Positions 1 to 62,079 of a stretch of DNA of 64,000 bases are shown here, in pieces. The stretch's first letter is position 1. Every line of letters starts with the position of its first letter. The position numbers and the translations under genes are program-made. The notes beneath the pieces are model-generated. The model was not told the DNA's origin, ran no database searches, and saw only the letters and a list, made by a program, of their open reading frames with translations. This DNA is from Perkinsus olseni (lineage: Eukaryota > Perkinsozoa > Perkinsida > Perkinsidae), in assembly GCA_013115135.1 (NCBI GenBank), contig JABANP010000069.1, forward strand, positions 62,001-126,000, read 5' to 3'.

Positions 1-3000
1 ACTTCCATGCTGAACGACCGTGGGACGGTGGAACGGTCGACAGCGAGTCGGTCGCGAAGTTGAGAGAACATTATTAAGTTGCACTCGAGTCCTTCAAGAG
101 CAATGTAATAGAGGTAAGATCAGCTGCGAAGGTGCATCACAGAGCATCAAGAAACAGCGACGTTCATCAAGATCGGCAGGCGACGCTTACAATAGCCATT
201 CCGACGGATAGTTTTCTCTTATTGCCACCACTGAGACTCCCAGCCCGCTTGTCCTTATATCTGCGATAAAAACGCTGCCCGCGGGATTCGAACCTGCGCC
301 TCTCACGGTTCCAATGAGAGCTGCTTCAAAGTACTCTCCACCGAAGCGTCAAGTAGGTGGCCCTTCAAACCCTTCAGGCGGCCATAGAGCTCCAGATGCT
401 CCTTTGTGGTCATTCGATCGAGAAGCGCATCGAACTGGGGACAGTAACCAAGATTCCTCCGGCACTTGGCCGTCTGAAAACCAACCAAACCTGCTGTACC
501 CACACGGACATCACCCCTCCCCGTGCCGTTTCCGCATAAAGTAGGAAATCGCTAAGGCAGCAAGATGATAAGGTTCGGCAGTTTTTTTGTTTGTCTTCGT
601 CTACGAATCTGTTGTGTCTCTAGCCTAGTATTCATTGCTGTATTACTACGTTACGGCCTGTCTCGTTCGTCTACTATCGTACTTCCCTATCACGGTTTCA
701 CTTTGGGTGTTTCGTTCACTCAATAAAGCCTGCGTGCCTTACATCAGCAGCAACGGTCGAGCCCGCTACCCACACCTCTCCCTCTGTTGGTGCATACAAG
801 CCGCACATCATCTTGAACCTAACAAAAACTAATTTAAAATAAGCATTGCCTAGTGTCCCACACCCCAGCACTCGGCGACTTCTCAAAGATCTACTTCCAC
901 ACTTAACTTCAAAGAAATTGATTTTCTCTCTTCGATCGAATGGAGGCGGGTACCCGATGGCGAATCAGTATTCCGCCAGCGTCAAATTTAGACTTCCACC
1001 GAACAAGCACGAACAAGCAGTAGACTTCAATCACCTACGTCGTAGTCTTGCCAGCACCGTTGATCCCCAACAGTCCGAATACTTGACCAGAGTCAGCAGC
1101 GAACGAGACGCCCTTCACTGCATGAACAGCCCTCGAAGGATCGGCAGTCAGAGATCCTCGGGGAAGGTAACTGCGCGAAAACTCGCGGTTAGCGCGGGAT
1201 ACAAGAGCACCGCAATGCACGAAAGTCGCGAAATGCCTTGGCAGTTGTGCTAGGCAAAGCTTCTAGGCGAGAGTAACTCCAGGTGATAATCATAGTCAAT
1301 CTACCGACCAGAACGGTTCCGGCCGCCAGGCAATGCAAGCCAGGGCCGGCAGCAATACTTAACAGACCTCAACTGTCTTCAGACCGTCGGTGACAGGATG
1401 GACTCGATGGAGGTTTATACGAACCAGCTGTTGAAGACAACCGATGTCCGACATCGAAAGGTGGTCAGACATGTGCTTCCGTTGCCGGAAAGAGTCGGAC
1501 AGAGTCCAAAATTGACCGTGCTTACCATTTTCGAACGTTGTCAACGGCCAGAATCTGCTTGCGCTTGTCCAGCCCCGCGACTCTCTCTTTCTCTACCGTA
1601 ACATCCGCATCTTCTGGCGCCAGCTGGTCCTCAGGGAATTGAACTAAAACGAGCAGGAACATCTCAGGTCCATTGAGGAAGAGCAAGATTGCAAGATGTT
1701 CATCAGACCACACCGTGTGGAATAAGAGCCTGATTCCAGCTGGTCTATCGCTTACCACTGCCTCTCCAGTTTGACTTTGTACGACAGCCAGTGGCCTGCG
1801 GTACCCAAATAGTCGAACCAAATACAGAGCGCGAGGAATGCAACGCTGGCGAATGCGAGGTAGACCAGGTCGTCGGCTACTCCCCCGTAGCACAGCTCTC
1901 GAGTGCCCAACACCTTTTCAGTGCATGTACCTAGAGGGAACCTGTGCGTGCAATGAACGCCTTAATGGTGCCCTCCGTATCAGATGCACAGAGCACGGTA
2001 CTCTTCCAACTACTAACGATAATCGTCTTGAATATGATAGCTGGGTTTACGATCGTTTACGCTGGTACAGACGAATTGTAACTTACCGAAAATTTCCGAC
2101 CCCCAAGGATCCACGCCCAAGAAGGAGACGTAGATGGCCATCCGGTAGAAACCGAACCCGAGGGCGAATGACGGGACAAATCGGAAGATCCACATGAGAA
2201 TATTGCCGGCAACCTGAACAGAAGCTTTTCGCGAATAATCGAGATGCTGTGTCGTATAGCGTCCCGGTTCCTCGTATCAGAGACCTTTCCTAATATACGT
2301 TTGAGGTTCAGAGTCGGGTTGCGTTCGCATCAGAACTGATGACACATTGTAGCGAATCTCTAAGCTTAATTTGTCCATTTTCAATAAGCCACTATTTTCA
2401 AAGGAGGCGAACCCTACCACGGTCGACAATCATCGAGAAAGATAATCGTGTAGCGAACAGTCCACATCTGAGTCGTCTCCCAGTTTGCGGCGGTTCTCTC
2501 TCACCAGGCAGTCCTCGCAGAACTCCTCGGGTATAGTCTGCAGCACCGATACGACGATGACGACGATCGTCCCGACGGCGATGTTCAGCACGATGGTAAC
2601 CGTCTGGGCTGAAAACTGCGTCTTGTACAGGAAGGAGATCAGATAGGCGTACCTGAACGAGCCATCGAGAGGTCCCGGGTTCGAATCCCGCTGGCAGCTT
2701 CTTACGTTGAGGCCGATGGGGCGAACAACAGCAGTAACATGATGGTTGGACCGATCTTATCGGACTCCGTAAATGCCTCCATATCAAAGGCATAGAACAC
2801 TGCTATGGCGACCGCTACGGTGAGGAGGTTGAATACCGTATCGAAGATGAAGTGGGCCAGCCAGTACGCGGTCATGGAGCACCTGAGAAGACCTCATTTT
2901 AGTCCCTATTCGTCTCGAAGTTCACTCTTGCAAGCCCTGATGGATGACGGGATTATCGTCTAAATTCTGCCGTGTTCATCATGAGCTATGAGCTATTCAC

Positions 3001-6000
3001 CCGTGCTTGCCGTAGAGTCTGTTGCCATACCACACCACAATGAACGGTGTTCGAAATATCACACGAGCACAGCTGCCCAGCAGACTTCTATGCTACAAAC
3101 AGCTAAATACTGCCATTGTGTCATCGCGAGAAGGCTGCCAGACTCGCTCGATCAAACCAGCCTACCCGGATATCGCCAGTTGTGCCTTCACGTCCTTTTC
3201 CTTTTCCATCACAATATAACTGCATATGCCCGCCGGGATGAAAGCGAAGGCCCAAATAACAGCCTGAGACGCGACGCAAGTGGTGGCTCCGTGACCACAC
3301 CGCGCAGCGATTTTTGGAATAGAGTATTGCCTTCATATATGAAGGGATTCTCCTGTGCAACATCTGAACATACTCACTGAGTTCTCTCTGCGAAATGAAA
3401 TTGTGGGAAAATGTGAAAAACCGATTTTCCAAGAACTCCTAGCTCCGCGACTATGCAAACAAGATCTTTGGGCAATCGTGCCGCACTTTTTCTGTACTGC
3501 AAAGGAGCTGCGGGATGGAGATTCCAGCGCACCATGAGCACAGCAGCTCCTTACTATTGTGGAGAGTATGCCAGATACCACCACTGAGATATTCTGCTCG
3601 AACAGAGTCTGAGGCATCGGGTGATTCACGACGGTAACCTGAGACAAGAAAATACTGAACACTCAATTGCTCAAATTCTGCAATAATGAATGATGAAGAC
3701 AATTTCCACTCGACTTAACGTTATTGAAGCATTGCCCTTCGCTGCAAAAAAAATTGAGCAACCCGTGGGATTCGAACCCGCGACCTGCTCACCTTGACGT
3801 CCGTTCCGTGAGCAGCAAACCATGCGTTGACATACGCGTTCAACGCGATAGCCGAGGACGCGGTTGCCGTGAGATTGTGCCAAAGCACCACTCGACTGGC
3901 TGGATCTTCCGCCTCCCTCTGGAGTTCAGTAGCGTTATTTAGGTGCGGGAGAAAGCGATGTAGGATGACGCCTAACAACAAGACGATGCATCGATGTGAC
4001 TAAATGCCGCAGCGCAGTCAGCACTCTCTACAACAGCGCGAATTTTCAAGTATCCTACTCGCGTCAGCAGGTCTGCCCAGTCAAAAAGTGAATACACAAC
4101 ACTTCCACGACACCGATTCGAATCCACAACGCTCATCCGAGGCCCATCAAGGATCGGTAGCGTAAGAAGCGACCTGTAGTGCAGCGTTCTTAATACGAGC
4201 AGCATGAGACTCCGCCCATCATAGATATATAAACAATTAAGAGTCTAACATGAAACGAGATGCGCGAATACGCCGGAGGGCATTCTCGAAGGATATCGCC
4301 CACTACGGCAGCACCATGAATCAGTCTTATCCTTCCTACTCCGCCTCACCTCATAGTCGTCCCGAGACTCTCGTAAGTGGGACTGCATAGCCAGCAGGTC
4401 ACTGCTCTGATTGGGCGGAGTCGCCACTGTCCGAAGCGTGTCGCAGTAATCATCGGCATCGTCGCACAGAGGTGACCAGAAAGGACCTGCGAGCCAGGCT
4501 CCTTGCAACCGATCATTCCCTGTCGCAAGACACCGTCCGAGTCTCCGAGCCCCAGAATACTACCAACATCCGAGTCGCCTCCCGCATGGATGATATGCCA
4601 GGGACGAGGAGAGCCAGCTTTCTGGAGCGGCTCGTTAAGATCGGCGATGCTTATCGCCAGCGGTGGAGCCACCTGATGTGAGAGACAAGCTCATACGTTT
4701 CCATGTTTACAGATGCTCTCAAGAGCCGTCCTGCTCCACTTCGAGTGACGACAATTCCGTGGAGAGTTCGCTACTCGGATTGTCAGCGATTCGTGGAAGA
4801 ACACGTAGGATAGTAGACGAGTATTCATATTGTTTCTATTGAGCTTACTCTTTCACTCGCTCCCTGTTTGACCAAAGCCAGGGCGCCCGCCAAGAGGATC
4901 AGTGGTAGCAGAAGCTGGCATATGAACATCTTCCTATCACGCAGGCCGAAGCGTATCCTGAGTACATGGATCATGAATGCACCTACTAAGTCGGGACGAT
5001 ATGACCTCCTCTGAATCAAGGCCATCGTTTGCTCTCTCGTTGTCGCCGGTTCAATGATCGGTTCATCTTCCTCCCCGATATGCACAACCGTCTCCTGGTA
5101 TCCTCGCGTCTTGGTCATCAGCCTGGTTGGCTGAATCATTATCGACCGAGTCCAGGGGAACTACGGCTCTGAGAGATGGATTCCTGAGGGACTCTAAATT
5201 GGTCCTGCCAAAAGCTGAGGTGTATAAATTCCGATGCCGGGACTCGAACCCGGGTCGTCTGGGTGAAAGCCAGATATCCTAACCAGCTAGACTACATCGG
5301 ACGATGCCCGAGATATTCTCTATCAGAGCCAAACACTCTCCGGCAATTCGTTACCCTGAACGGGCTGTAGCACCCTCCGATCTTTCCTCTGCACCTGGAT
5401 CTGCAACCCTTAAAAATACTTCTTCCAGGTTAGTCACCGACACGCCGTAGGCCACCAACTGAATGGAAATCACGGGTGGAAAACACGTTTCGCGGGAGCT
5501 AAGGAGAATCAGTGACTCCGGATTCCGCGGTGAGGCAAGCTGTACGAAGATACGCTCGGAAAATGCGATGAAAAATTGATAGAATTGATGGATAAAATTG
5601 GCTCATTGAACGATATCTCAGACACACCCTAGCTTACCAGACCCCTTCAAGGTGTCGCTCTTGTTAGCAATCTCGGCGTCGAGATCGTCCATAAGAGCTG
5701 GGAAGTCCTTAGCAGCGGCGAACGGCACTTGCACCAGCAGCTCCTGCCCCGCGGATGAGAGAACCTTAACCTGAGGTGACGCAACCCATTGCGATTTGGG
5801 CTGATTCACATCCGCACGAGAGCGAACCAGACTTCAGTGAGAATTGCGAAAGTGAAGTCCTGTGAGGACCATAGACACACAATCAAAGCTACGCTCAGAT
5901 TCTGATCTCGTCGTAGTTCAAAATGATCCGGAGCTATCAACGCGTTATTAGCGCAACGGAACGAGGTCGCACCGTTTTACCTGTCCGATGAGGCTCTTGT

Positions 6001-8720
6001 CGGTGATGCGGTCCTTGAGGAACTCGAGCACCGTAGAATCGCCGCGATCTACGTCTTGTTTCTTCACAAAACTCAGGACGTATCCGCATCCGTAACACTT
6101 CTTCAGGAAACTGGATGAGCCCAGGCACTTGAGCTCTCCACGACCCATTATAGCTATCCTGTCTCCCAGCACATCAGCCTCGTCCATGTAGTGCGTCGTG
6201 AGGCAGATGATCCGTCCCGGACGCCGTGCCTTCAGGAGATCCCAGGTGGTTCGACGAGCGTAAGGGTCCATGCCAGAAGTAGGCTCGTCGAGAATAACCA
6301 GTTTCGGGTCCCCGACGAAGGCGATTGCCACCGAAAGTTTCCGCTGCATACCGCCACTCAGGCTGTCAGATCGGAACTCCTTCCTCCCGCCGAGACCAAC
6401 TTCCAGCAAAAGGTGGTCGCAAGACTCTCTGAACGTCTTTGAGCTTCTGATTGAGACCCCGAATGCCTCCGAAACACTCGAGGTGTTCGAAAGCGGTGAG
6501 CTCGGGCCATAGGGCGTTGTGCTGGGGACAGACACCGGTGATGCGTCTAATCGCTGCCATGTCCTTCGGCACCCTCAGCCCATACACGCTCACCTTTCCC
6601 GAGGAGGGAGCGAGGAAGCCAGTGATGGCGCCCATAGTAGTTGTCTTGCCGGCGCCGTTGTGACCGAGGAGAGCAAAGATCTCGCCCTCATACATGGACA
6701 TGCTCACGCCTTTGACAGCGGCTACTGTCTCTCCAGAGGGTCCCTTAAAATTCTTGCAAAGCTTTGGAGATCTCAACGCATTTGCCAGCCTTTCCTCAAA
6801 GCCTCCTTGGAAGCATCCACCGCCTCTCTGGGAACGGCATTTGCCCTCGCCACCATCGGAGTCTTCTTTCTCATCATCGAGAAAATCGGCGTCTCGGTCA
6901 TCCCGAAAGCACTCGAGCCAGTAGCTCTTTTGGAAGGGAAAATAATAGGGTCGACGGAACCCGACTTGGAAGGGGTTCGTTTGATCCACATAGTAGTACA
7001 GAATCCACCAGAGAATGCTCGCCACAAAATTCATCGCCACTGCCTGGGCATAGGAATAGTTGCGATAATCGACAGATGTGGTATCAGACGTCAATCCGCC
7101 ATAAGTCTCCTCAAGGTAACCGACAACACTGAGGCCTTCGCGGAAGCCCACGATCGGTATCAAGGACATGAAGTTCTTAGTGGACGCCGCGGCGTAGTCG
7201 GGCACCGAGATGAAGAGACCAGCTAGGTAGACGAAGAAGCCGATCACAGCTCCAACTCTCTCCCGAGTGAAAATGGCTGCCATAAGGAAGGCAAAGGACA
7301 TGCTCGAGAGACCGAAGGATATGTTGAGCATGAAGATGAGGAACCAAGAAGAATGCTTGTACGTACCAACTTTCATAACCAGCGAAATCGCAAGGCAAAT
7401 GATGAGCCAAGTTAAGATTTGCGTGATGAGCCAGGATAGGTAGTAAGATACGTCCATGAGGCCCATCATTCTCATTATCTCACGGAGCCTCATCTCCTTC
7501 TCTCTGATCAGGCGGGAGATCTGCACACTAACAGACGCCGAGAAGGCGAACACCACCAGCCAGGTGAGGTCGCTGATCAGGTCAATGCCGTCAGACGACC
7601 AGTAGGGCTCCACCGGAAAAGGAACAGACCAAGTTCGCTTGAAAATTGTCTTCTCTTCGCTGCTGATATCGGCACCAGGGACCTCCGTAGTTCTCCTCGC
7701 CGCCTCAGTCACAGCCTCGTGCCGTGACGCTATAAAGCGTTGAACCATCAACTGTATCGCTAGAAAGCCATTGCGAATGTAGAAGTGTCGAGCCGAGTCC
7801 TCATCGACGTGTCGTTCGATCCCTCTAGGATCGTCCTCTAGTGAAGTCCGTGTTATCCAACGACTAATGCGACCGATCGTAGCGTTGAGGCGTATCTTAA
7901 ACTCGGGGTTACCATCCCGAAGGATATCATTCTCAAGAACGACGGCACCGCACAGCCTATCCCAGGCTGCCAGATCGGACCCACGCTCCTGGCCAGAAGT
8001 GGTCTCAATTGAGGACCCGTAGTCCTCGTCCTCAATGTACTCCTTCAACTTATCCTCGTCATCGAACACCCTGAAGAGAGTTCTGGTGTTCCACGATCCG
8101 CACTGGGCCCAGTTCGTGAGGAAGATCTCTCGGGCATCGCTGTCACCATATCCACCCTGAACAAAGCCTGGTTCGTAACGGTCGCCAAGGTCCCAATGAT
8201 AGGTAAAGTTGTGACCGGTGGCGTTCAGGACTTCCTCCTCGAGTCTTTGATACTCTCGCTCGAAGTATCCCTTCAACCCATTGGCAAGCTCTTCCCTTCT
8301 GACACCCTTCGCCACAATCGCCAGAGTCTTGCACCAGCACGACTGACCCGAGTCGGCCATCGGCTGTCGCCTGAAAATTCCCCAGCGCCTAGTGTCATCC
8401 AGAAAGTCGACGTCGAAGGCCTGCGCCCGAGGGTAGCCGTCCTGGCTGACCGGATCGGACTCGACGACCATTTTCCGCTCGAAGTCCAGACCGAGCAGGC
8501 CAGGAAGTTGAAAGATGAGCCAGGAGAGTATAATGGGCAAGAGTATTTCGCAGCAGCTGCACTTCCAACTTCGTATCTTGAGAATTGCGTTCTTCCTGAG
8601 TAAAGCTCCGACCTGACGGTGGACCATCCTCTTGGGGGCTTCCGATTGGGCCCCGGCCATTTCTATCAGCTCAGACGGTCTTGCCTCGCTGGCAGGCCGT
8701 AGCGCAGTTCCGTCTTCCAT
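1..8720 (-). CDS. ABCA-type full ABC transporter, multi-exon, 3' end off the window
   Basis: ABC subfamily A proteins are integral-membrane lipid transporters or flippases. The start at 8720 opens a long exon: a first membrane helix near residues 48-66, a large extracellular loop, a helix cluster near residues 395-620, then NBD1 with Walker [11 protein letters not shown] (about 6636-6664). NBD1 continues in another frame (5981-6435) with [11 protein letters not shown], Walker B LVILDEP and the H-loop. Later exons hold the regulatory segment (5618-5809; about 5354-5465, ending [11 protein letters not shown]), TMD2 (4825-5139, then pieces such as VVNHPMPQ at about 3640, AFAFIPAG at about 3230, YWLAHFIFD at about 2850, [14 protein letters not shown] at about 2180), NBD2 Walker [11 protein letters not shown] (1035-1100), the Q-loop exon (307-503) and the signature [11 protein letters not shown] (about 205-235). 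NBD2 Walker B must lie beyond base 1. The domain order is that of a full-length ABCA. One unexplained frame change lies at 6405-6440. Most exon edges are approximate. Confidence 0.9.
261..306 (-). other. 46-nt ABCA intron made largely of a tRNA 3'-end-like sequence
   Basis: Read on the minus strand the intron opens GTGAG at 306 and closes ATCGCAG at 261, joining the NBD2 Q-loop exon to the signature-motif exon. Between them lies a T-arm and acceptor-like stretch with the B-box core GGTTCGAATCC (294 to 284), then a run of five T as at a Pol III terminator. The tRNA-like sense matches the gene sense. Confidence 0.75.
2653..2705 (-). other. 53-nt ABCA intron with an antisense tRNA 3'-end-like sequence
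   Basis: The splice from ..SAST to [13 protein letters not shown] in TMD2 requires removal of 2653-2705 (GTAAGAAG..GTTCAG). The intron carries a T-arm core GGTTCGAATCC on the plus strand at 2678-2688, so the tRNA-like part is antisense to the gene. Joining restores an open frame across a membrane helix. Confidence 0.7.
3639..3792 (-). other. ABCA intron with a tRNA 3'-end-like segment next to its donor
   Basis: The exon ending ..AAHGTDVK joins [10 protein letters not shown], a recognisable ABCA stretch, when 3639-3792 is removed. The first 51 nt, GTGAGCAG to TTTGCAG at 3742, themselves look like a mini-intron: T-arm core GGTTCGAATCC at 3778-3768, acceptor-like sequence, then eight T. The B-box core starts 14 nt from the donor, against 12 nt in the 261-306 intron. 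Confidence 0.65.
5230..5301 (-). tRNA. tRNA-Glu (anticodon TTC), inside an ABCA intron
   Basis: A complete 72-nt cloverleaf reads on the minus strand: acceptor TCCGATG pairs with CATCGGA over 7 bp, the D-arm carries an A-box (TAGTCTAGCTGGTTAGGATA), the anticodon arm is TCTGG-CTTTCAC-CCAGA with anticodon TTC, and the T-arm is CCGGG-TTCGAGT-CCCGG. It lies between the ABCA exon ending near 5354 and the TMD2 exon at 4825-5139, in the same sense as the host gene. No run of four T follows the 3' end closely, so its terminator is unclear. Confidence 0.93.
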
Positions 8721-9692: not shown

Positions 9693-10020
9693 ATGGATTT
9701 TGCCCGAGTTGTGTTATAACCCGGGGTAACCCAACTGATCCAGTATAATTTCGTCCAGTGGTCATCTGTTCCAGTGTAAAGTCGTCCACTATAATTTCGT
9801 CCGGTGCCATTCCATCCATCTCATTTCACCCATCAAAATCGCCCATAAAATAAAATCTCGGCCCATCCAGTCTCACTTCTTCCGTACATTCGCCCTGTTT
9901 TTTTCATCCATGTCTCATTTCGTCCACCGAACTTTTTAATTTGGCATCGCGAAGCCGCTTCGCGATGCCAAATTAAAGTTCAGCAGGCTCCGCCGCCGGA
10001 CTACCCTGACTTTCTCCTCC

Positions 10021-10095
10021 GGAGCCGACCCCAGGAATCGAACCTGGGTTGCCCGGTCAGCAGCAGTGGGACTTAACCACGCCACCACTCGTACC
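10021..10095 (-). repeat. tRNA-like sequence inside the Mutator-like element
   Basis: The minus strand shows an A-box-like TGGCGTGGTTAAGTCCC and a well paired T-arm CCCAGGTTCGATTCCTGGG. Acceptor strands do not pair and the anticodon arm is irregular, so this is a tRNA-derived fragment and not a working gene. Confidence 0.5.
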
Positions 10096-12501: not shown

Positions 12502-14468
12502 ATGCTTCGAAGACTCGGCAAACTCGTCCTCCTCCAAGCGCTTCACACCGGCGACGCGATCCCAGGCTCTGACTCAGTCTCAGCCGAAATATACAGGAGC
12601 ATCGGTCCTATCGGCAACTTCTCGACAATCGTCTTGGCGCTCGATGACAATATGATGTCGTCCATCACCTTCTACCTGCCTGGTATGTCACGTCCGCTTT
12701 TCATTCGTCGGCACCAGCTGCAATCGGATGGAGCCGGTTGTTTGAGGTATTCGGCCGGGGCGCCTAGCGATACGGCGTTGGCTCACTCGAGCATAGAAGA
12801 TGTCAAGAAAAGGCTCGGCGACGGTTTCTCCCAGGAACTCGATTGGAGCGATATGAAAGTCTGCCCTGACACAGCCACGACTGCTCGTCTCATACTCAAT
12901 GGTCGGTCGCATGTGCTGCGCCGGGTCGATAAATTCATTCTTGCGGGCGCAAGGACTGGTCTCAGAGACTCCAACCGTCAAGAAAGTCATCACGAGGATA
13001 CAAGAGCGGTCGCTTCGAGCGCCACGGTCGCCATGAGACCGGAGGGTAACTCGGTCCGTGGAGTGCTCGAGAAAGGTTTAGCCAAGAAGTCTCCCTTGGT
13101 ATCTCTCACTAGGAAACAACAGCAGCTCGCTTCAGTCAGTCTGGGTGATGCGCATAGAGCGAGGCCTCCCACCATTGTCACCTACGAGAATACTGAGCCC
13201 GTACCTGGCTTGCGGAAGATGCGGTTGGCTTTACGGAACGACGTGCTCTGTTCTTTGGAATTCTATCGACAAGGGGCACCACTTCCGCTGATAATCGGTC
13301 CGTACAGGATGATCCCCAGTCTTCTCACGGGGTGCCTCAAGTATGACTTGAGCGACACTTCACTCTATCAGAAAGTTGCCGCCGATCTCAACCGTCTGAC
13401 CGAGTTGTGGGCTGGTGACCAAGCCGAGGACATACTGCCAACGGCTATAGCCATTCGTCGGCTGAATCATGGCCAAGTTGAATTAATTATCGGACCAGAA
13501 AGATACAACCTGACCTCGACGAGCACCCCAGTATTGGAGAAAAATCCTGAACATTCTTTATACTCGGTGACTACAGATGTAGCTGACTCGGAGACTCGTG
13601 GCCTCGCCTCCTCGTCTCGCGAGAGAAAGCGGACGAGGATCGAGGGAGTTCGAGGGCCTGCGAGTCTAGCCGCCACCCCAAGCGTAGGAGCACAGAGGTT
13701 TGACGAGGAGACGAGGCAAGAGTGCGGCGCCTCGAAGCCTTCCAAGCGTCCACGGCTCGAGCCCGCGGTCGCGACTCAGACCAGGCTGCATGCGGTGAGA
13801 TTGCTCCATGCTGGTGTATACGAAAGCGAGTTACCCATTCCCTACTTCGCCAAGGTCTTCATGAAGATCGAGGCCGAACTATCGTGCTCCTTGGCCTTCT
13901 TGTTTGGGGACAACACATCACAAGTCTCACTAGGGCCCTACAGAATGATGATTAGCCTACGGACAGGATGTCTAAAGTTCGACCTGGAGGATGTCTCGGT
14001 GCGCTCTCGAGTAGTCGGAGCCTTCAGAGCACTGTCGAAAAAGCTCAGTCTGGAGGGTCTCCCTAGGCTCTATGCTACTGAGGTTAGAGGTTTGCGGTTT
14101 CACTATCAGGGCAAGTGGAATTGTCTATTGCAAACACACGGTATCCGATGCAGCCGACTAAGGCTTCGATAGAAACAAGCCGTCCGTTAGAAACACAGGA
14201 CTCCCGAAGAGCCGTCAGTACCCCAGGAGGAGCCGCAGTAGAGCGCTTTCTTGGAGCCAAGGGCCACCAAGCCCACTGGCAGGGCATCTCCCTCAGCTTC
14301 CCTCCGATGCAGGCATTCCAGACCCCCAGGGTGGGGTTTGATGACGCCGACCTCTTCGAAGACCTCTGGGCACAGCTCACTCGCAGCCCTACCGAGCCTA
14401 GCCCTGGTGATTTGATACCCGATGCCCTGCTTGATTATCTCGACCCAGTGCATGAGGAGGTGATTTGA
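12502..14468 (+). CDS. Triple-repeat secreted-type protein, copy 1 (frame break near the 3' end)
   Basis: Function unknown. The main frame (12502-14172) begins MLRRLGKLVLLQA, a short possible signal peptide, followed by three diverged copies of a ~110-residue domain: near residues 30-145, 225-345 and 430-545. Each copy opens with Y(E/R), has a strand ending CSLxF or similar, then IGPYRM or an equivalent, TGCLKYDL, and a final strand such as GQVELIIGPERY. The paralogue at 17167 shares most residues. Relative to it there are two extra bases at 14080-14105, so the main frame ends early (..CLLQTHG). The conserved continuation (VELSIANTRYPMQP.. to DLFEDLWAQLTRSP..DALLDYLDP) runs in another frame to 14468. 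This could be a real mutation, an assembly error, or use of an unrecognised intron. Confidence 0.65.
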
Positions 14469-17166: not shown

Positions 17167-19249
17167 ATGCTCATGAGACTCGTCCGACTCGTCCTCCTTC
17201 AAGCGTTCCACATCAGCGGCACAATCCCAAGACCTAAGCCGGGCTCAGTAGAGATATATAGGAGTATCGGTCCTGTTGGCAACTTCTCGAAAATTGTCTT
17301 GGCGCTCGATGACAATATGATGTCGTCCATCACCTTCTACCTGCCTGGTATGTCACGGCCGCTTTTCGTCCGCCGGCACCAGTTGCAGTCGGATGGAGCC
17401 GGTTGTTTGAGGTATTCGGCCGGGGCGCCTAGCGATACGGCGTTGGCTCACTCGAGCATGGAAGATGTCAAGAAGAGGCTCGGCGACGGTTTCTCCCAGG
17501 AACTCGATTGGAGCGATATGAAAGTCTGTCCTGACACAGCGACGACTGCTCGTCTGATACTCAATGGTCGGTCGCATGTGCTGCGCCGCGTCAATAAATT
17601 CTTCCTTATCAAGAAGAGGAATGGTGGCAGGGACTCGAGCCACCGAACACGTCATCATGAGTTGGCAAGAGCAATCACTTCGAGCGCCACGGTCGCGAGG
17701 AGCCAAGAGAATAACCCGACGCATGAGCGACTTGAAACAAGTGTAGCGCGGCAGCCTCCCTCTTCCATTATCAGGAGAGTACACCTGCCCGCGGTAGTCC
17801 GCCAGAGTACTGTGCATGGAGCGAGGCTTCCCAAGACCGCTACCTATGTGAATACTGAGCCTATAACTGGCTTGCGGAAGATGAGGTTGACCATACAGGA
17901 CCAGTCGCTCTATTCTTTGGAGTTCCACACTCACGGGGCGCCAAGTCCGCTGACAATCGGTCCGTACAAGATGATTCCCAGTCTTCCTACAGGGTCCCTC
18001 AAGTATGACTTGAGCGACACTTCACTCTACCAAAGGGTTTCCGCCGACCTCAACCGTCTGACCGAATTGTGGGCTGGCGACCGAGCCAAGAACATACTGC
18101 CAACGACTATAGCCATTTGTCCGCTGGATGATGCACAAGTTGAATTAATTATCGGAACAGAGAGATACAAAATGACCTCCACGAGTATTCCGGTATTTGA
18201 TGAGAATCCTGGGCGTTCTTCATACCTGGCGACTACACTTGCAGCCGACCCGGAGATTCGTGGCCTCGCCTCCTTGTCTCACCAGGGGAAGCGACCAAGG
18301 ATTGAGGAAGTTCGAGGCACTGCGAGTTCTTCGAGCCCAGCACCCACTAGGAACGTGGCAGTGGTTCAGCGGTTTGATGAGGAGAAAAAACAGGAGGCAT
18401 TAGATGGCGCTGCCTCGGAGCCCCCAAAGCGTCAGCGACTCGACTCGCCAGTCGAGAGTCAGACCAGGCTGAATGCGGCGGTGCTGCCCCCTATTGGTGT
18501 CTACGAGAACGAGTTGCCCATTCTCAACTTCACTAAGGTCCATATGAGGATCGAAGTGGATGCCTCGTGCTCCTTCGTGTTCTGGTTGCCGGAAAGCACG
18601 TTACCAGCCTCACTCGGCCCTTTCAGAATGATTACTAGTCCGCTAACAGGATGCCTCGTGTTCGATCTGAGAGAAGTCTCGGAGCGCTCTCAGGTGGTCG
18701 CATTCTTCATGGGACTGTCAAAAAGGCTCAGTCGGAAAGGTTTCGGGAAGATCTATGCTACTGAGATCGAGGTCTGTGGTTCACCATCAGGACAAGTGGA
18801 ATTATCTATTGCAGACAGGCGATACCCAATGCAGCCAGCGGGCTTTTTAAAAACGCAGGGGCTACAGGGAGCCGCTGGCACTCCAGGAAAAGCTGCACTC
18901 CGACGCTTCCTCCGAGCCAAGGGTCATCAGCCCCCTCGCGGGGTGGCACTTGTAGTCTCCCCGAAGTCCCATACCGACGGAAAAGATGCACTCAAGCACT
19001 TCCTCAGAGCCAAGGGACATCAGCCCAGTCCTAAGGTAACGCCTGCACGCTCCTCAAAGAGGCCATGCGACCGGAGAGAGCGGGAACATTCTGGGGGTCG
19101 AGATTTCAAAGGAGAACTTGGTGGACGTCGACCTCTTCGAAGACCTCTGGGCACAGCTCACTCGCAGCCCTACCGAGCCTAGCCCTGGGAGTTTGAGACC
19201 CGATGCTCTGCTTGATTATCTCGACCCAGTGCATGATGATCCGATTTAA
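17167..19249 (+). CDS. Triple-repeat secreted-type protein, copy 2
   Basis: Function unknown. The start MLMRLVRLVLLQAF aligns with copy 1 at 12502 and may be a signal peptide. Three ~110-residue repeats follow, beginning near IYRSIGPVGNF, TYVNTEPITGLRK and VYENELPILNF. Linkers are rich in Ser, Arg and Pro. After the third repeat two FLRAKGHQ units precede a 76-nt intron that I infer at 19036-19111 (AAG|GTAACG .. CAAAG|GAG). Removing it joins SPK to ENLVDVDLFEDLWAQ and runs in frame to the stop at 19249, giving 668 residues. This tail is conserved in copy 1, which supports the splice. Without the splice the frame would end at 19182 in unrelated sequence. Confidence 0.75.
19036..19111 (+). other. 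Predicted 76-nt intron in triple-repeat gene copy 2
   Basis: Donor AAG|GTAACG and acceptor TTTCAAAG|GAG lie on codon boundaries. Splicing puts the conserved tail DLFEDLWAQLTRSP in frame. Confidence 0.6.
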
Positions 19250-36625: not shown

Positions 36626-39600
36626 TCACCAGCCGAGAAACATAGCCCATGCATACCCGACAGTGCTGAGTATGATTAAAATCAGTAGGGCCACAGTGAA
36701 ACCTGACAAGTGAACATTTCACAACCGAAAGGTCCCCGGATCGATCCCGCCTTACCTGACTTTACGAAGTCCTTGGATTGTAACACTGGCGCAGGTGGCG
36801 CTCCCGGTAACGACAAATGGACCACTCCTGCCGCGTTGGCATTCGGGAAGGAACTGAACAATGATTTACACTCAGTACCGAGGGCAAATCGATCAGCCGA
36901 TCGATTCAACCTCAAGAGAAATTCATGGTCTCACACGTCCCTGCTCACCTAACCGGCAGGCCCATCGCCGCTGATGTCATCAACGCACATCCGACCGTAA
37001 ATAAGCGAGGATGACCAACGACTGCGCCGACCTGAGAAGGCGATGTAAATCTCGCTCGCCCTAAAATGTGAAGGAAACGCCTACCTTGGCAACTACGGGC
37101 AAGGCTACGATGGCACAGACGGTAGAGGAGAGGAAGTTGGCGACCAATCCCGTACAAACGAAAAAGCAAACCGCGCTCGCCCAGACACTCGAGCCTTCGA
37201 GGGACTTGGAGATCCCGTCGGCGAGAATACGTAGAAGGCCCGAGCTTTCCACTGCGTTGCCGAGAGCCACGCCGCCGCCGAGAAGTGTCAGGACCGACCA
37301 CTGAGAAAAGGAAAGCTGTTTTCAGGGAACCTCTCCCTGCTGTGGAGGAGACGACGCAATGCGATCCCTCTAAACATCTGACGAAACTTGGAATCTTGCT
37401 ACTCGTCAAGTTAGCAGCACGCACAAACAAACGAAGAAAAGGAAGAAGTCTCAATGCCGGCTCACGACGACTCGGACTTCTTCGGAATGGCAACTGTATG
37501 ATTCACACCAGCACTTACTCGACTTGGATTCCTCCAGAAATTCTGAATTTTCGGGCGAAATCGGGACAGTTTCCCTCCGAGAAGACAAACTTTGATTTTC
37601 GATCTCCCTTAATCCGATTCCAACGCCGTAACCAACCTGCATGCCGTGCCAATCCTCGGTCGTGAGGATGCCAAGACTATGGAAGGCCACCACCGCCATC
37701 AGCCCAACCATTCCCATACTGCCAAATACACTTTGAAGACCCGCAAGATCAAATATCATCCACAGGAATACCGTCGTGCAAACTATACCTAAAGCGAACG
37801 ACTGCCGCAGAAGGGGCCATGCATTGGAAGCCTTACCGATGATGGTCCAATCGGTGGAATTTAGTGGCGCGTGACGCAACTCCATCTCCGAGTCCTCAGA
37901 GTCTCTGTGCTCACCTACGCGCGCAATGACGGATTCCCCGTCTTGTTCCCGAGAACAGAAATCGATTGGCTGGGCGAGCGAAAAAGACAGTCTCAGAGAG
38001 TTTACCATTATTACCATCGCTGGAGCCCCGTCGCCTCTCGGTCAGTTCCAAAGGCTTTGCGTCGCTCCGTCGGCCGCCGTACATAAATTTCAAAACCGCA
38101 AAAACTGACGTCGCCGCCAGCGCGCAAATGGGGAAGGCGAAAACGATCCACTGCATGAAGGACAAATTGGAACCTCCGTTGGAACCTAGGGAACAGCATA
38201 GCGTCACGCGCCACGAAATTAGTTCTCCCAGCACTACGCAAGGCGACGAGGGCGATCACGTTCTGCGGCGATGCGACCGGCGTTATCATCCCACCGACGT
38301 TACCTAGGGAAAGGACACATGGAAAAGTCTCCAAGCTCTCCCCGGCATTCGAGCTGCACGTCGGGCGAGAAAATACACGAAAATTAATTTTTCTATTTTC
38401 CGGGGAATAGTCGAGGTGGTATGGCCGTCGTATACTGGTGGACCAGATACAGTTGTATCCTAGACGTGCAAAAATGATAGAGCGAGCAGCGCAAAAAAGC
38501 CGTCGGCAGGTTTCGAACCGAGGGTCTCCGGGTCTGGCGTGCCTAGAACAATCCGCTCGTCCTTCGAACAAAGCGTCCTGCCTCCACTTGGCAACACCAT
38601 TAGGGCGATCGACGAGTCATTGAGAGATCGCCGAGAGTCCGGATATGCAACGTGTTGATCAGAAAGCCGAGCGCATGCCTGTCCGTTCATTCAATAAAGC
38701 GCACGAGATTTACTCCTGAAGAAAATGACTCCGCCCGGGATTGAACGTGGGTCCCCATACTACAGCCAAACGCCACTTCCAAAATAGCTCTCTTCGCTTC
38801 CGAGTCGGAGAGCTCTCTAGCCACTGGTGCAACAACAGCCGTTAACAGAACTGCCGTCGCCACATTAGAGAGGGCCCCCGAGACGAAGAGACCCAAACAC
38901 AATATTACCTACAACAACCACGACGATCGGTCTACCCTCCGTGAGCGAGAAAAATGATGAACAAAAGGCGGAGCGAAGCGGAATGCTGCTATGCCGCAGT
39001 CTTGATTGATGAGTATCCACTGCCCAGTAGTCACCCACAAGGTTGAGAGTTTATATTTTTCTATGAATAAAATAAATTGATCTCACAATTTTGGTCTGTA
39101 GCAACTTCGTGCTTTCGGAAAAATTTCAAATTTTCCGATTTGTGTAACGAATTGGTTCACCCAGAATTTTTGCCGAGCGTTCAACAACCACTGCACGCAC
39201 GCACATGCGATGCGACTCTTACTCCAACACTTGGAGACCTACGGCTACCCGAATCATATTTCCCCTCAGTATTACAAGGGCGAGCCGATCGCCTCCTGTG
39301 GCCACTCGAGAAAGTAGTCTGGTTGCTAGCCGCTCCGTGATGTGAAACCTGGGTGACGAAGATACGCCAAATCGATCACGTGATCGATTATGGCAAGTAT
39401 ATTACTTCTCCAAAGCTTGTCCCATTGCGAATCCAGAAATAAAGAGGAATATAACAGGATCGAAGTATGCCGCAGAAACCACCACTGCTGCCGCAGACGG
39501 TGGAAGTGCTTCCGCTGAGGAGCAGGAGAAGGGCATCCAACCGCTATGTATCGAATCAGCGATTAAGAAAGTGATAATAAAACGGTAGCACGCAAGTCGT

Positions 39601-44339: not shown

Positions 44340-44651
44340 TCAATCGGAGAAGCGAGCCTCTTTGCACCTGTAGTACTCTAGCTTCCCTTGAGCGGCCAGG
44401 TATTTGGCCCGGGCTGCTTCCACGAGGACGTTATGAAGCTCTCTAGCTTCCGCTGCTCTTTTGATCTTGTCATCCTTCTCGATCTCTAGTACCTCCCTCT
44501 TCAATCTGAGATTCCCCGACAGCATTGCAGCAGAGTCCTCCGTCCCAATCTTGCTTGTCACCGACGAGACTGCGCGTAGGCCAAGAAGAATCAGGGCTCT
44601 ACCGGGGATCGAACCCGAGTCGACACGAGGTGGACATAGAGCCTTAACCAA
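44340..44651 (-). pseudogene. Coiled-coil ORF fragment within the transposon
   Basis: The C-terminal half reads LRLKREVLEIEKDDKIKRAA then EARELHNVLVEAARAKYLAA, a charged helix resembling tails of transposon-encoded Myb/SANT-type accessory proteins. The N-terminal third is a translation of the tRNA-like T-arm (VDSGSIPGRA), so the listed start is not meaningful. It may be the remnant of an element-encoded protein. Confidence 0.35.
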
Positions 44652-50084: not shown

Positions 50085-50841
50085 TCATGCTGGCACTACG
50101 CCTTTAGCGAGAGTAGCCGCAACGTTCACATCTGGGAGCTTCCCCTCGGTGTCCTGGATCTTCGCTTCGAAAAGAGATATCGAACTTCCAGCCTTCGTCC
50201 GTCTTATTTACGGACACTGTCTGCGAGGTGGAGATCCTGAGAGAGTGGCTCATGGTCGTCGTCGAGCCGAAGAGGTAAAAACCATTCGGGTTGAGATACC
50301 CCTTGATAGGATATTCTGGAGTTGTAATCTGCCAAGACGGCCATGGAGCGTCGGGATAGAAGATATTTAGCCAGCCAGGAAAATCAAAATAGGTAGCTAC
50401 AACATCTGGATCGAGCGTCTGCTTACGGTCAGTGACACGTCTACCCTCGGGAGCCATAATCGGGTAGAAGTAAATACCCTCATGAACGAACTTGAAAGAA
50501 GTCAAACCTGAGGCTCTTACTGCAACCTCTCGGATGTCACTCTTGCGGATTTGAAGATTAAACGCCACAAAGCCGTCGTTCCCGGGCTCAGTGCTGTTGA
50601 GACGAATCGTGATGAAATCACCGTCATATCCATCCGGGCGTCGATGACTTTTCCCAGTAAAGACGCAGGCGCCCTCTAACAGCTCTTCGATTTTCGTTCC
50701 TTCAGCGGGACCGAAACCAGGGAAAAAGCAACCCTCGGGATACGCCGAGGTGACCGTGAAAGCTTGCACGCCGTAGATGAAGAGCAAGAGGCAGCAACCT
50801 CGTGACCAAAGACTTTTGGAGCTCAGGCTGGTAGCTGGCAT
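50085..50841 (-). CDS. Secreted beta-rich protein, family A copy 1 (late frameshift)
   Basis: Unknown function. The start at 50841 leads into a hydrophobic segment GCCLLLFIYGVQAF (signal peptide or anchor, residues ~15-29), then a ~215-residue beta-rich region with two conserved Cys (CFFPGFGPAEGT and LLEGACVFTG) shared with the paralogue at 59499-60266. Shared motifs include ITIRLNS, HEGIY, TTPEYPIKGYLNPNGF and DEGWKFDISF. Immediately after SF one extra base (about 50165-50172) shifts the frame, which then ends at 50104. The conserved tail EGKLPDVNVAATLAKGVVPA runs in the other frame to a stop at 50085. A recent mutation or a sequencing error are both possible. Confidence 0.7.
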
Positions 50842-59498: not shown

Positions 59499-60266
59499 TC
59501 ATGCTGGCATTACGCCTTTAGCGAGAGTTGCCGCGAAGTCCACATCTGGGAGCTTCCCCTCAGCGTCTCGGACCTGAGCTTGAAAAGAGATATCGAACTT
59601 CCAACCTTCTTCTGTCCTGAGCAGGAATAGTGTCTGAGAGGTCGTGACCATCACAGAGCCGCTCTGTGCCGCAGTTGACCCAGAGAGAGCAAACCCTCTG
59701 TTGTTGTACTGCCCCACGAAGCGATAGTCCGGAGTTGTAATAATCTTAATAGCCCCATCCGGCAATGGACCGTCGGCGAAGGAGATCTGTAGTCCGCCGT
59801 GCATATCAAGTTTGGCAGCATCATACGGCCCCGGGCCAGTCTCAGAAAAACCTAATTCGCCGTTACTTATGGCGGGCTGGATATAGATACCTTCATGAGT
59901 GAACCCGAAATCGGCCGAACGATCGGTGTATACTGAGAACTGTTCGTTGTCATCCTCGCGGAGAGCAAAGTAAAAGGTCACGTAGTCGTTGTTGTCGGGC
60001 TGATTACTATTGAGGCGAATCGCGATGAGGTCACTGCTATACTCCGCCAGAGTACGACCCTTGACGGTGAAGATGCAGGCACCCTCTAATAGTTCTACAA
60101 TGTTCGTTCCTTCAGCGGGGCCGATACCAGGCATGAAGCAATCCTCGGGATATTGCGAGGTGACCGTGAAAGCTTGCACGCCGTAGAGAAAGAACAAGAA
60201 GCAACAACCCCGGAACAAGTAAGAGCAGAGGCCAGTTGAGCCCAGGCTAGTAGGCGGCGGCGCCAT
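59499..60266 (-). CDS. Secreted beta-rich protein, family A copy 2 (intact)
   Basis: Unknown function. The 255-codon frame is uninterrupted: N-terminal ~18 polar residues, hydrophobic GCCFLFFLYGVQAF (signal peptide or anchor), then CFMPGIGPAEGTNIVELLEG and ACIFTV with two conserved Cys, IAIRLNS, HEGIYIQP, ITTPDYRFVGQYNNRGFALS, EEGWKFDISF, and the tail EGKLPDVDFAATLAKGVMPA. It lacks the extra base that breaks copy 1. It lies between the inverted arms at 56441 and 63954. Upstream (60331-60425) are two tandem copies of a 49-bp unit with a palindromic core that might be regulatory. No homology to a named family is claimed. Confidence 0.75.
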   Translation of the reverse strand: MAPPPTSLGSTGLCSYLFRGCCFLFFLYGVQAFTVTSQYPEDCFMPGIGPAEGTNIVELLEGACIFTVKGRTLAEYSSDLIAIRLNSNQPDNNDYVTFYFALREDDNEQFSVYTDRSADFGFTHEGIYIQPAISNGELGFSETGPGPYDAAKLDMHGGLQISFADGPLPDGAIKIITTPDYRFVGQYNNRGFALSGSTAAQSGSVMVTTSQTLFLLRTEEGWKFDISFQAQVRDAEGKLPDVDFAATLAKGVMPA

Positions 60267-61779: not shown

Positions 61780-62079
61780 AAGGACCACACTTAGGCCAAG
61801 AAAATCAGGTCTCTCCCGGGGATCGAACCCCAGTCGGCGCGAGGCTAATATGGAGCCTTAGCCAAGCAGCCAACTCAACAACTCGGTTTGTTTGGCTCTG
61901 CGACACCTCGCGAGTTCGCCGATTTTGCTCCTTAAGTTGCAATTTCAGGTGTACTCGAGTACGCCTTAAATTTAGGAACTCCTTAAGGTTCTCCTAAACC
62001 TTGTGAAACGAGTTAAGAAATCCTTAAGTTGCTCCTAAACTTAAGGCGCCTTAATTTAAGTATCCTTGTGAAACAGGCT
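61780..62079. mobile_element. Truncated copy of the CTTAAG/GGCGCC transposon
   Basis: From TAGGCCAAGAA through the tRNA-like head to CCTTGTGAAACAGGCTC this matches 44571-44889 in order and orientation. Only the right end is present; no left inverted end was found. Confidence 0.7.
61811..61881 (-). repeat. tRNA-derived SINE-like head, copy 2
   Basis: The minus strand has a T-arm CTGGGGTTCGATCCCCGG and a 5-bp anticodon-like stem AGGCT-CCATATT-AGCCT, but no U33 equivalent. Homologous to 44596-44668. Confidence 0.6.

Follow-up and report, generated by a model that had tools for sequence, protein, structure and literature searches.

The origin of introns is an old question, and the best-documented mass route of their gain is that of introners, many of which bear the marks of DNA transposons. 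A 64,000-nucleotide (nt) stretch of the Perkinsus olseni genome (contig JABANP010000069.1, positions 62,001 to 126,000; C656:62001-126000), here called the window, raises the question of whether the tail of a tRNA gene can give rise to introns too: several introns of an ABCA-type gene and of an SLC13/CitMHS-type transporter gene contain a short sequence resembling tRNA 3' ends. The original prediction, made from the letters of the window, had taken this sequence for a tRNA-derived element that inserts or converts into introns by an introner-like process. The whole assembly (61.5 Mb, 968 contigs) was searched, and a real, abundant repeat that descends from a tRNA 3' end (the module) makes up the greater part of at least 12 minimal introns. 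We give slightly better than even odds (about 0.52) to an introner-like repeat that has spread through the genome, its copies becoming most of minimal introns. If this is true, short tRNA-tail repeats would be an unusual possible source of new introns in a mollusc parasite and would add a possibly RNA-linked route of intron gain in a myzozoan.

Module introns in the window and in other genes

The core sequence GGTTCGAATCC occurs exactly at three places in the window (284-294 and 3768-3778 on the minus strand, 2678-2688 on the plus strand), and matches to it with at most one mismatch number 9 against 1.09 expected, a count reached in 0 of 100 shuffles. The shortest of the predicted module introns, 261-306, was said to be module as a whole: splicing it gives an ABC_tran domain (residues 3-78) that scores 30.8 bits against a cut-off of 25 and contains the junction at residue 55; left unspliced, the reading frame contains stops. 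The annotated P. olseni protein P0003 matches the splice at 2653-2705 exactly (...FAPSAST/YAYLI... across the junction), which confirms the intron proposed to hold an antisense copy; the T-run of this copy has become TTCTTAC, which reads as a GTAAG donor on the gene strand. The stretch proposed as a donor-proximal module proved to be the donor end of a longer, P0003-matched intron. Spliced alignment of P0003 also yielded implausible introns with poor donors (e.g. 6806-6853 and 6429-6477), and only those matching tblastn exons were kept. In the transporter gene, the 457-nt intron claimed to open with a T-arm-like module was upheld by a CitMHS domain across the junction; the copy itself is decayed. 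The fifth predicted case, an antisense copy in 36703-36755, fared less well: the frame stays open once spliced, the spliced peptide has no Pfam match, and the module profile match (36730-36764, plus strand) reaches 11.3 bits only.

The open reading frame (ORF) 6366-8720(-) of the ABCA gene is 95% identical to one P. olseni protein over 80% of the query and 91% identical to another over 50%. A short intron without a recognisable module seems present in the same gene at 4958-5005, and a complete tRNA-Glu(TTC) gene (67.7 bits, 5229-5301, minus strand) lies on the gene's strand in the ABCA intron between exons 5354-5458 and 5096-5167.

Codon- and ORF-based intron calling around modules gave no separation from random positions and was replaced by tests of whether a Pfam domain spans the spliced junction. 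Nineteen spliced peptides were tested: three came from the window, and the other 16 were chosen by eye because they resembled known domains. Domains span the junction above the curated cut-off in 12 peptides and below it in two (Ank in L038, GBP in L028); the matches of L078, L103 and L111 do not span it, and L023 and window 36703-36755 have no match. Eleven of the 12 above-cut-off peptides belong to minimal introns and one to the 457-nt transporter intron. With 2653-2705, supported by P0003, the protein-supported minimal introns number 12 (46-65 nt; nine sense, three antisense), and the module of about 39 nt forms the bulk of each, donors and acceptors lying 0 to about 25 nt beyond it by inspection. 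Bar the two in one ABCA gene, they sit in unrelated domain families; similar introns at non-homologous positions of several genes are what characterises introners. For scale, PMC3101222 gives P. marinus introns as 39-1622 bp, most of them below 100.

Table 1. Introns and module copies in the window, and the minimal introns found at other loci
Feature	Location	Strand	Module orientation	Length (nt)	Remarks
Intron, ABCA-type gene (minimal)	261-306	-	sense	46	Module fills nearly the whole intron; donor GTGAG at 306, T-run, GCAG at 261; ABC_tran
tRNA 3' module in intron	268-302	-	sense		tRNA-numbered positions 44-78; profile 34.4 bits
Intron, ABCA (minimal)	2653-2705	-	antisense	53	P0003 splice-matched exactly
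tRNA 3' module	2670-2704	+	antisense to gene		Profile 40.5 bits, top score in window
Intron, ABCA	3639-3792	-	sense	154	Donor end is module (stretch 3742-3792); P0003 alignments
tRNA 3' module	3752-3786	-	sense		Profile 36.5 bits
Possible intron, SLC13/CitMHS-type gene	36703-36755	-	antisense	53	Core GGATCGATCCC; weakest window case
Intron, same transporter gene	38304-38760	-		457	Module at its start; CitMHS 40 bits across junction
Decayed module, donor end of 457-nt intron	38721-38755	-			Profile 14.3 bits
Second module-like copy in 457-nt intron	38493-38527	-			Profile 29.9 bits
Minimal intron	L024		sense	53	HATPase_c
Minimal intron	L025		sense	47	SNF2
Minimal intron	L008		sense	46	RING; from GTGAG-selected search
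Minimal intron	L102		sense	49	HEAT; few match residues upstream of junction
Minimal intron	L101		sense	47	FAT
Minimal intron	L131		sense	65	Helicase; splice restores HRIGRTGRAG
Minimal intron	L149		sense	49	Kinase; splice restores IVHRDIKP; near-identical paralog L159
Minimal intron	L157		sense	53	RCC1
Minimal intron	L086		antisense	59	UCH
Minimal intron	L032		antisense	55	FAD_binding_8

The module is dispersed through the genome far above chance. The genome has 881 copies of AGGTCNNNGGTTCGANYCC and 988 of GGTTCGAATCC, for which the reversed control gives 2 and 26, respectively. The core loci examined were drawn in contig order from the first 100 of the 988 GGTTCGAATCC places, with part of a tandem array on C25 left out. 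A profile threshold of >14 bits gave 149 matches in 323,913 bases (window and loci, many of these chosen by motif; tRNA genes excluded) and 0 in the reversed control. A sample taken without regard to the motif, 157,742 bases or 0.26% of the genome from around 60 loci (30 with a tRNA gene at their centre), gave 22 copies by weight matrix (>18 bits) or 29 by nhmmer (E<0.1), which extrapolates to roughly 8,500-11,300 copies per genome. The dispersed tRNA-tail-like copies thus probably number thousands.

Possible origins: insertion, or shrinkage of older introns

In the reading that we propose, the tail of a tRNA gene, from the variable loop through the T-arm, the 3' acceptor strand and the discriminator A to the oligo-T terminator, would have given rise to a short non-autonomous repeat that spread through the genome, and a copy landing in coding sequence could be removed by splicing. 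For a sense copy, the T-run may serve as the polypyrimidine tract, closely followed by an AG, and the donor would lie at the module start or a few to about 20 nt upstream; in one subfamily the built-in GTAAT (tRNA positions 35-39) could itself serve as donor, as in L149. For an antisense copy, an altered T-run could yield a donor such as the GTAAG of 2653-2705. Insertion would thereby have created the module introns, each inserted copy becoming most of a minimal intron, and the repeat is, judged from sequence, a putative introner. Mobilisation may have passed through an RNA polymerase III (Pol III)-type transcript ending in oligo-U. A bolder version, which we hold to be speculative and rather unlikely, would have oligo-U-tailed 3' pieces of pre-tRNA-like transcripts written directly into the genome, where they would turn into introns and their terminator would serve at the same time as polypyrimidine tract; it would also make them the source of a sizeable share of short Perkinsus introns. 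Were a Pol III terminator indeed re-used as a polypyrimidine tract, about ten thousand estimated copies would be there for its study.

Splice sites are enriched beside the copies. Within the 0-14 nt that precede AGGTC, GTGAG is present in 46 copies out of 881; at 60-74 nt upstream it is present in 15 of 881. Both counts include repeated identical strings from duplicated genes. Among 101 copies from the loci (window, C25 array and GTGAG-selected exact sites left out), 29 have a strong donor (GTRAG, GTATG or GTAGG) at tRNA positions 26-43, against 6.7% of shifted windows, and 44 a T-rich acceptor (YAG preceded by four or more T) at positions 78-97, against 8.6%. Adjacent strong splice sites are thus found at a minority of copies, so the element is seemingly not confined to introns. 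Perhaps a fifth to a third of the copies are introns themselves, a share estimated rather than measured, and the others may be located in intergenic DNA or inside longer introns.

Several results weigh against the insertion of an introner-like repeat. The excess of T-rich acceptors arises partly from the module's own T-run, and with looser definitions the enrichment fades: any GTR was found near the module in 67 of 113 copies (64 expected, no enrichment) and plain YAG in 62 (53 expected, hardly any). The introns with protein support, which comes at the level of protein and sequence comparison, cover a minority of copies, and 12 out of 19 peptides is no rate, 16 of them being eye-picked. Target duplications at splice sites, which the original prediction had led one to look for, were not seen: at the junctions of 17 introns, for five of which neither a protein nor a domain above the cut-off covers the junction, direct repeats scored 2.76 against 2.67 in shuffled sets (standard deviation 0.11), which reflects the splice consensus only; module edges off the splice sites were untested. 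At these 17 junctions, then, the target-site duplication (TSD) of a DNA-transposon introner or miniature inverted-repeat transposable element is not seen. By eye, the two ends of the consensus, CGAAAGG and CATTTTT, show no complementarity, no systematic inverted-repeat search having been made. The introner-like process originally envisaged is partly supported: by the genome-wide abundance, by the module making up the bulk of the minimal introns, by the unrelated genes and positions and by the occurrence in both orientations, with no target duplication seen.

The ABCA paralogs on C65, C190 and C258 are uninterrupted at the site of intron 2653-2705, and so is an SNF2 paralog on C113 at the L025 site; at 27-41% identity these read-through paralogs are old, so gain and loss of the intron are undecidable from them. 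The nearer paralog pair on C26 and C44, examined for an empty site, has kept the elements in both copies; near paralogs having the element in common, instead of lacking it, also counts against an introner-like insertion. One gene on C26 (L161, C26:97500-99900) has four module copies, some in each orientation, in a span of about 1.1 kb, and its paralog (L160) has counterparts.

Unlikely, in our judgement, is that tRNA-derived repeats entered pre-existing introns which later shrank to minimal size, the module being kept since it still spliced well. The presence of copies in long introns too (3639-3792 and 38304-38760), the many copies without adjacent strong splice sites, and donors several nt outside the module (at L131 11 nt and at L157 8 nt before GTAATCG) are consistent with such a history. 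The twelve supported introns, however, hold little non-module sequence, and precise shrinkage around the module would have had to occur repeatedly. In introns this short, hardly anything besides the module could be left over from an older intron, a point in favour of birth by insertion.

Structure and descent of the module

The module corresponds to tRNA positions ~40-73 followed by TTTTT, beginning in one subfamily at ~35. Of 98 non-redundant exact-core sites (window and eight GTGAG-selected loci included), 22 overlap an ARAGORN tRNA and 76 do not. Aligned on the core, the columns of which are fixed by selection, these 76 copies are conserved over tRNA positions ~44-78 and little outside; in 62 copies without the exact core, conservation extends over ~40-78, the search profile itself favouring the core. 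The consensus of 57 of these 62 copies, CGAAAGGTCCCGGGTTCGATCCCCGGCCGCGGCATTTTT, is composed of variable loop AGGTC, T-stem CCGGG/CCCGG (5/5 pairs), a 7-nt loop, 7 acceptor nt, A73 and TTTTT, and it agrees with the column profiles in placing variable loop, T-arm, acceptor strand, discriminator and terminator in tRNA register. Mean pairwise identity of the 57 is 0.55 within the module and 0.26 in either flank, hence the similarity ends on both sides. The control lacks the subfamily start GTAATCGAAAGGTC, which the genome has in 65 exact copies; these are among 94 copies of AATCGAAAGGTC (5 in the control). In the 40 of 65 GTAATCGAAAGGTC copies fetched, duplicated genes included, no column upstream of GTAAT exceeds 0.62 for one base.

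The identification as a tRNA 3' end is thus sustained by position, and its stem pairing has not been kept. In the 76 copies, T-stem columns are paired in 39, 32 and 39 cases against 38.4, 35.4 and 40.8 expected if independent; in the unseeded set the apparent 49-65 pairing is 16 against 25.9 expected, some copies seeming to have a 6-nt loop, which lowers it. Since the columns pair no better than under independence, the copies have decayed without structural maintenance. Near-identical pairs (at least 18 of 23 variable columns) number 31 against 3.7 in column-permuted sets, duplicated loci making up 5 of the 6 most alike; once copies with similar flanks are taken out, which leaves 124 of 131, there are still 23 pairs against 3.5. 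This remaining excess argues for common descent beyond a shared motif. The copies are decayed descendants and not working tRNAs; that they are copies of assorted working tRNAs was rejected, as the T-stem columns do not covary.

It is improbable that the module is instead a selected functional motif (a TFIIIC/B-box site plus terminator, or a splicing element), partly convergent and no repeat at all. The independent variation of the T-stem columns would suit such a motif, as would the B-box core being the best-conserved part, a ranking that the search profile favours. The sharp edges of the 39 nt, the constant spacing of the T-run, the excess of near-identical pairs even without duplicated loci, the two orientations within introns and the perfect T-stem of the consensus all speak against it.

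The 5' half of a tRNA was sought upstream of the 76 copies. The A-box score is 5.0 near the copies, 4.97 far upstream and 7.7 in tRNA genes. The acceptor strand likewise lacks an upstream partner in the 76; with both tests negative, a full tRNA reading was rejected. For 16 loci, Rfam at E up to 1 returned a single tRNA, at a genuine tRNA-Leu locus, plus two weak hits from other families. We find it poorly credible that the copies are ordinary tRNA genes, 5'-truncated or worn out, or else tRNA-derived short interspersed nuclear elements (SINEs), with no special intron link: longer tRNA-like repeats with A-box-like GGTTAAG or GGCTAAG, noted by eye in the window (44589, 61803), and the tRNA-Glu inside an ABCA intron would fit it, but A-box scores of at least 6 are no commoner in the copies (26%) than in far-upstream controls (29%; 91% in the tRNA genes of the set), acceptor partners are missing, the T-run directly follows position 73 and ARAGORN finds a tRNA in just 5 of the first 38 loci.

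Relation to known elements and further observations

SINEs derived from tRNAs have a B box, descend from a tRNA, occur as dispersed copies and lack coding capacity. The module shares these traits; it differs in having neither A box nor 5' half, in its length of ~39 nt, in having nothing conserved past the T-run and in the absent TSD at the 17 module introns. The A box plus B box of a SINE is not found in module copies, nor is the complete cloverleaf of a tRNA gene, the 76 of 98 exact-core sites outside ARAGORN tRNAs being those without an acceptor partner.

PMC9860276 reports 548 introner families, with TSDs in 49 of 130 and terminal inverted repeats (TIRs) in 72 of 177 assessed, and also describes families lacking TSD or TIR; the words tRNA, SINE and Perkinsus are absent from its main text. 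As in those introners, many similar small introns stand at unrelated positions, with splice sites carried or recruited; the Perkinsus module differs in being tRNA-derived with a Pol III-type T-run, in its strong divergence and in its many copies without intron support. In Amoebophrya, a related myzozoan parasite, introners likewise occur as repeated introns; according to PMC7789003 they have inverted as well as direct repeats and mostly non-canonical splice sites, whereas the Perkinsus module introns are GT-AG, with no direct repeat at the 17 junctions. A literature search, judged largely by titles, brought up no paper announcing a tRNA-derived introner; the work it found on intron gain from tRNA-derived SINEs concerns Alu and human/mouse elements.

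Some copies have unusual surroundings. L018, L031 and L072 share a stretch of 128-144 nt at ~78% identity that includes the module and runs past its ends; L134 and L135 (C64, 5 kb apart) are neighbouring paralogous sites where similarity breaks inside the module, as if at a recombination joint; and L073 (C25:59511-64610) is a tandem array of ~1-kb units, several with B-box-like cores. Longer tRNA-like repeats in the window (10018-10052, 44589-44623 and 61803-61837, all minus strand), with A-box-like GGTTAAG/GGCTAAG upstream of the B box, are perhaps a separate SINE group. C778 and C823 carry tRNA gene clusters (L039-L068). The fetched loci, half of the 3-kb ones having been picked for tRNA matches, include 105 ARAGORN tRNA-Arg predictions in 35 variants, the commonest of which (29 copies) has by eye the anticodon TCT. 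Two pairs of related, uncharacterised ORFs in the window (12502-14172 and 17167-19182, plus strand; 50104-50841 and 59499-60266, minus strand) appear by eye to be local duplicates.

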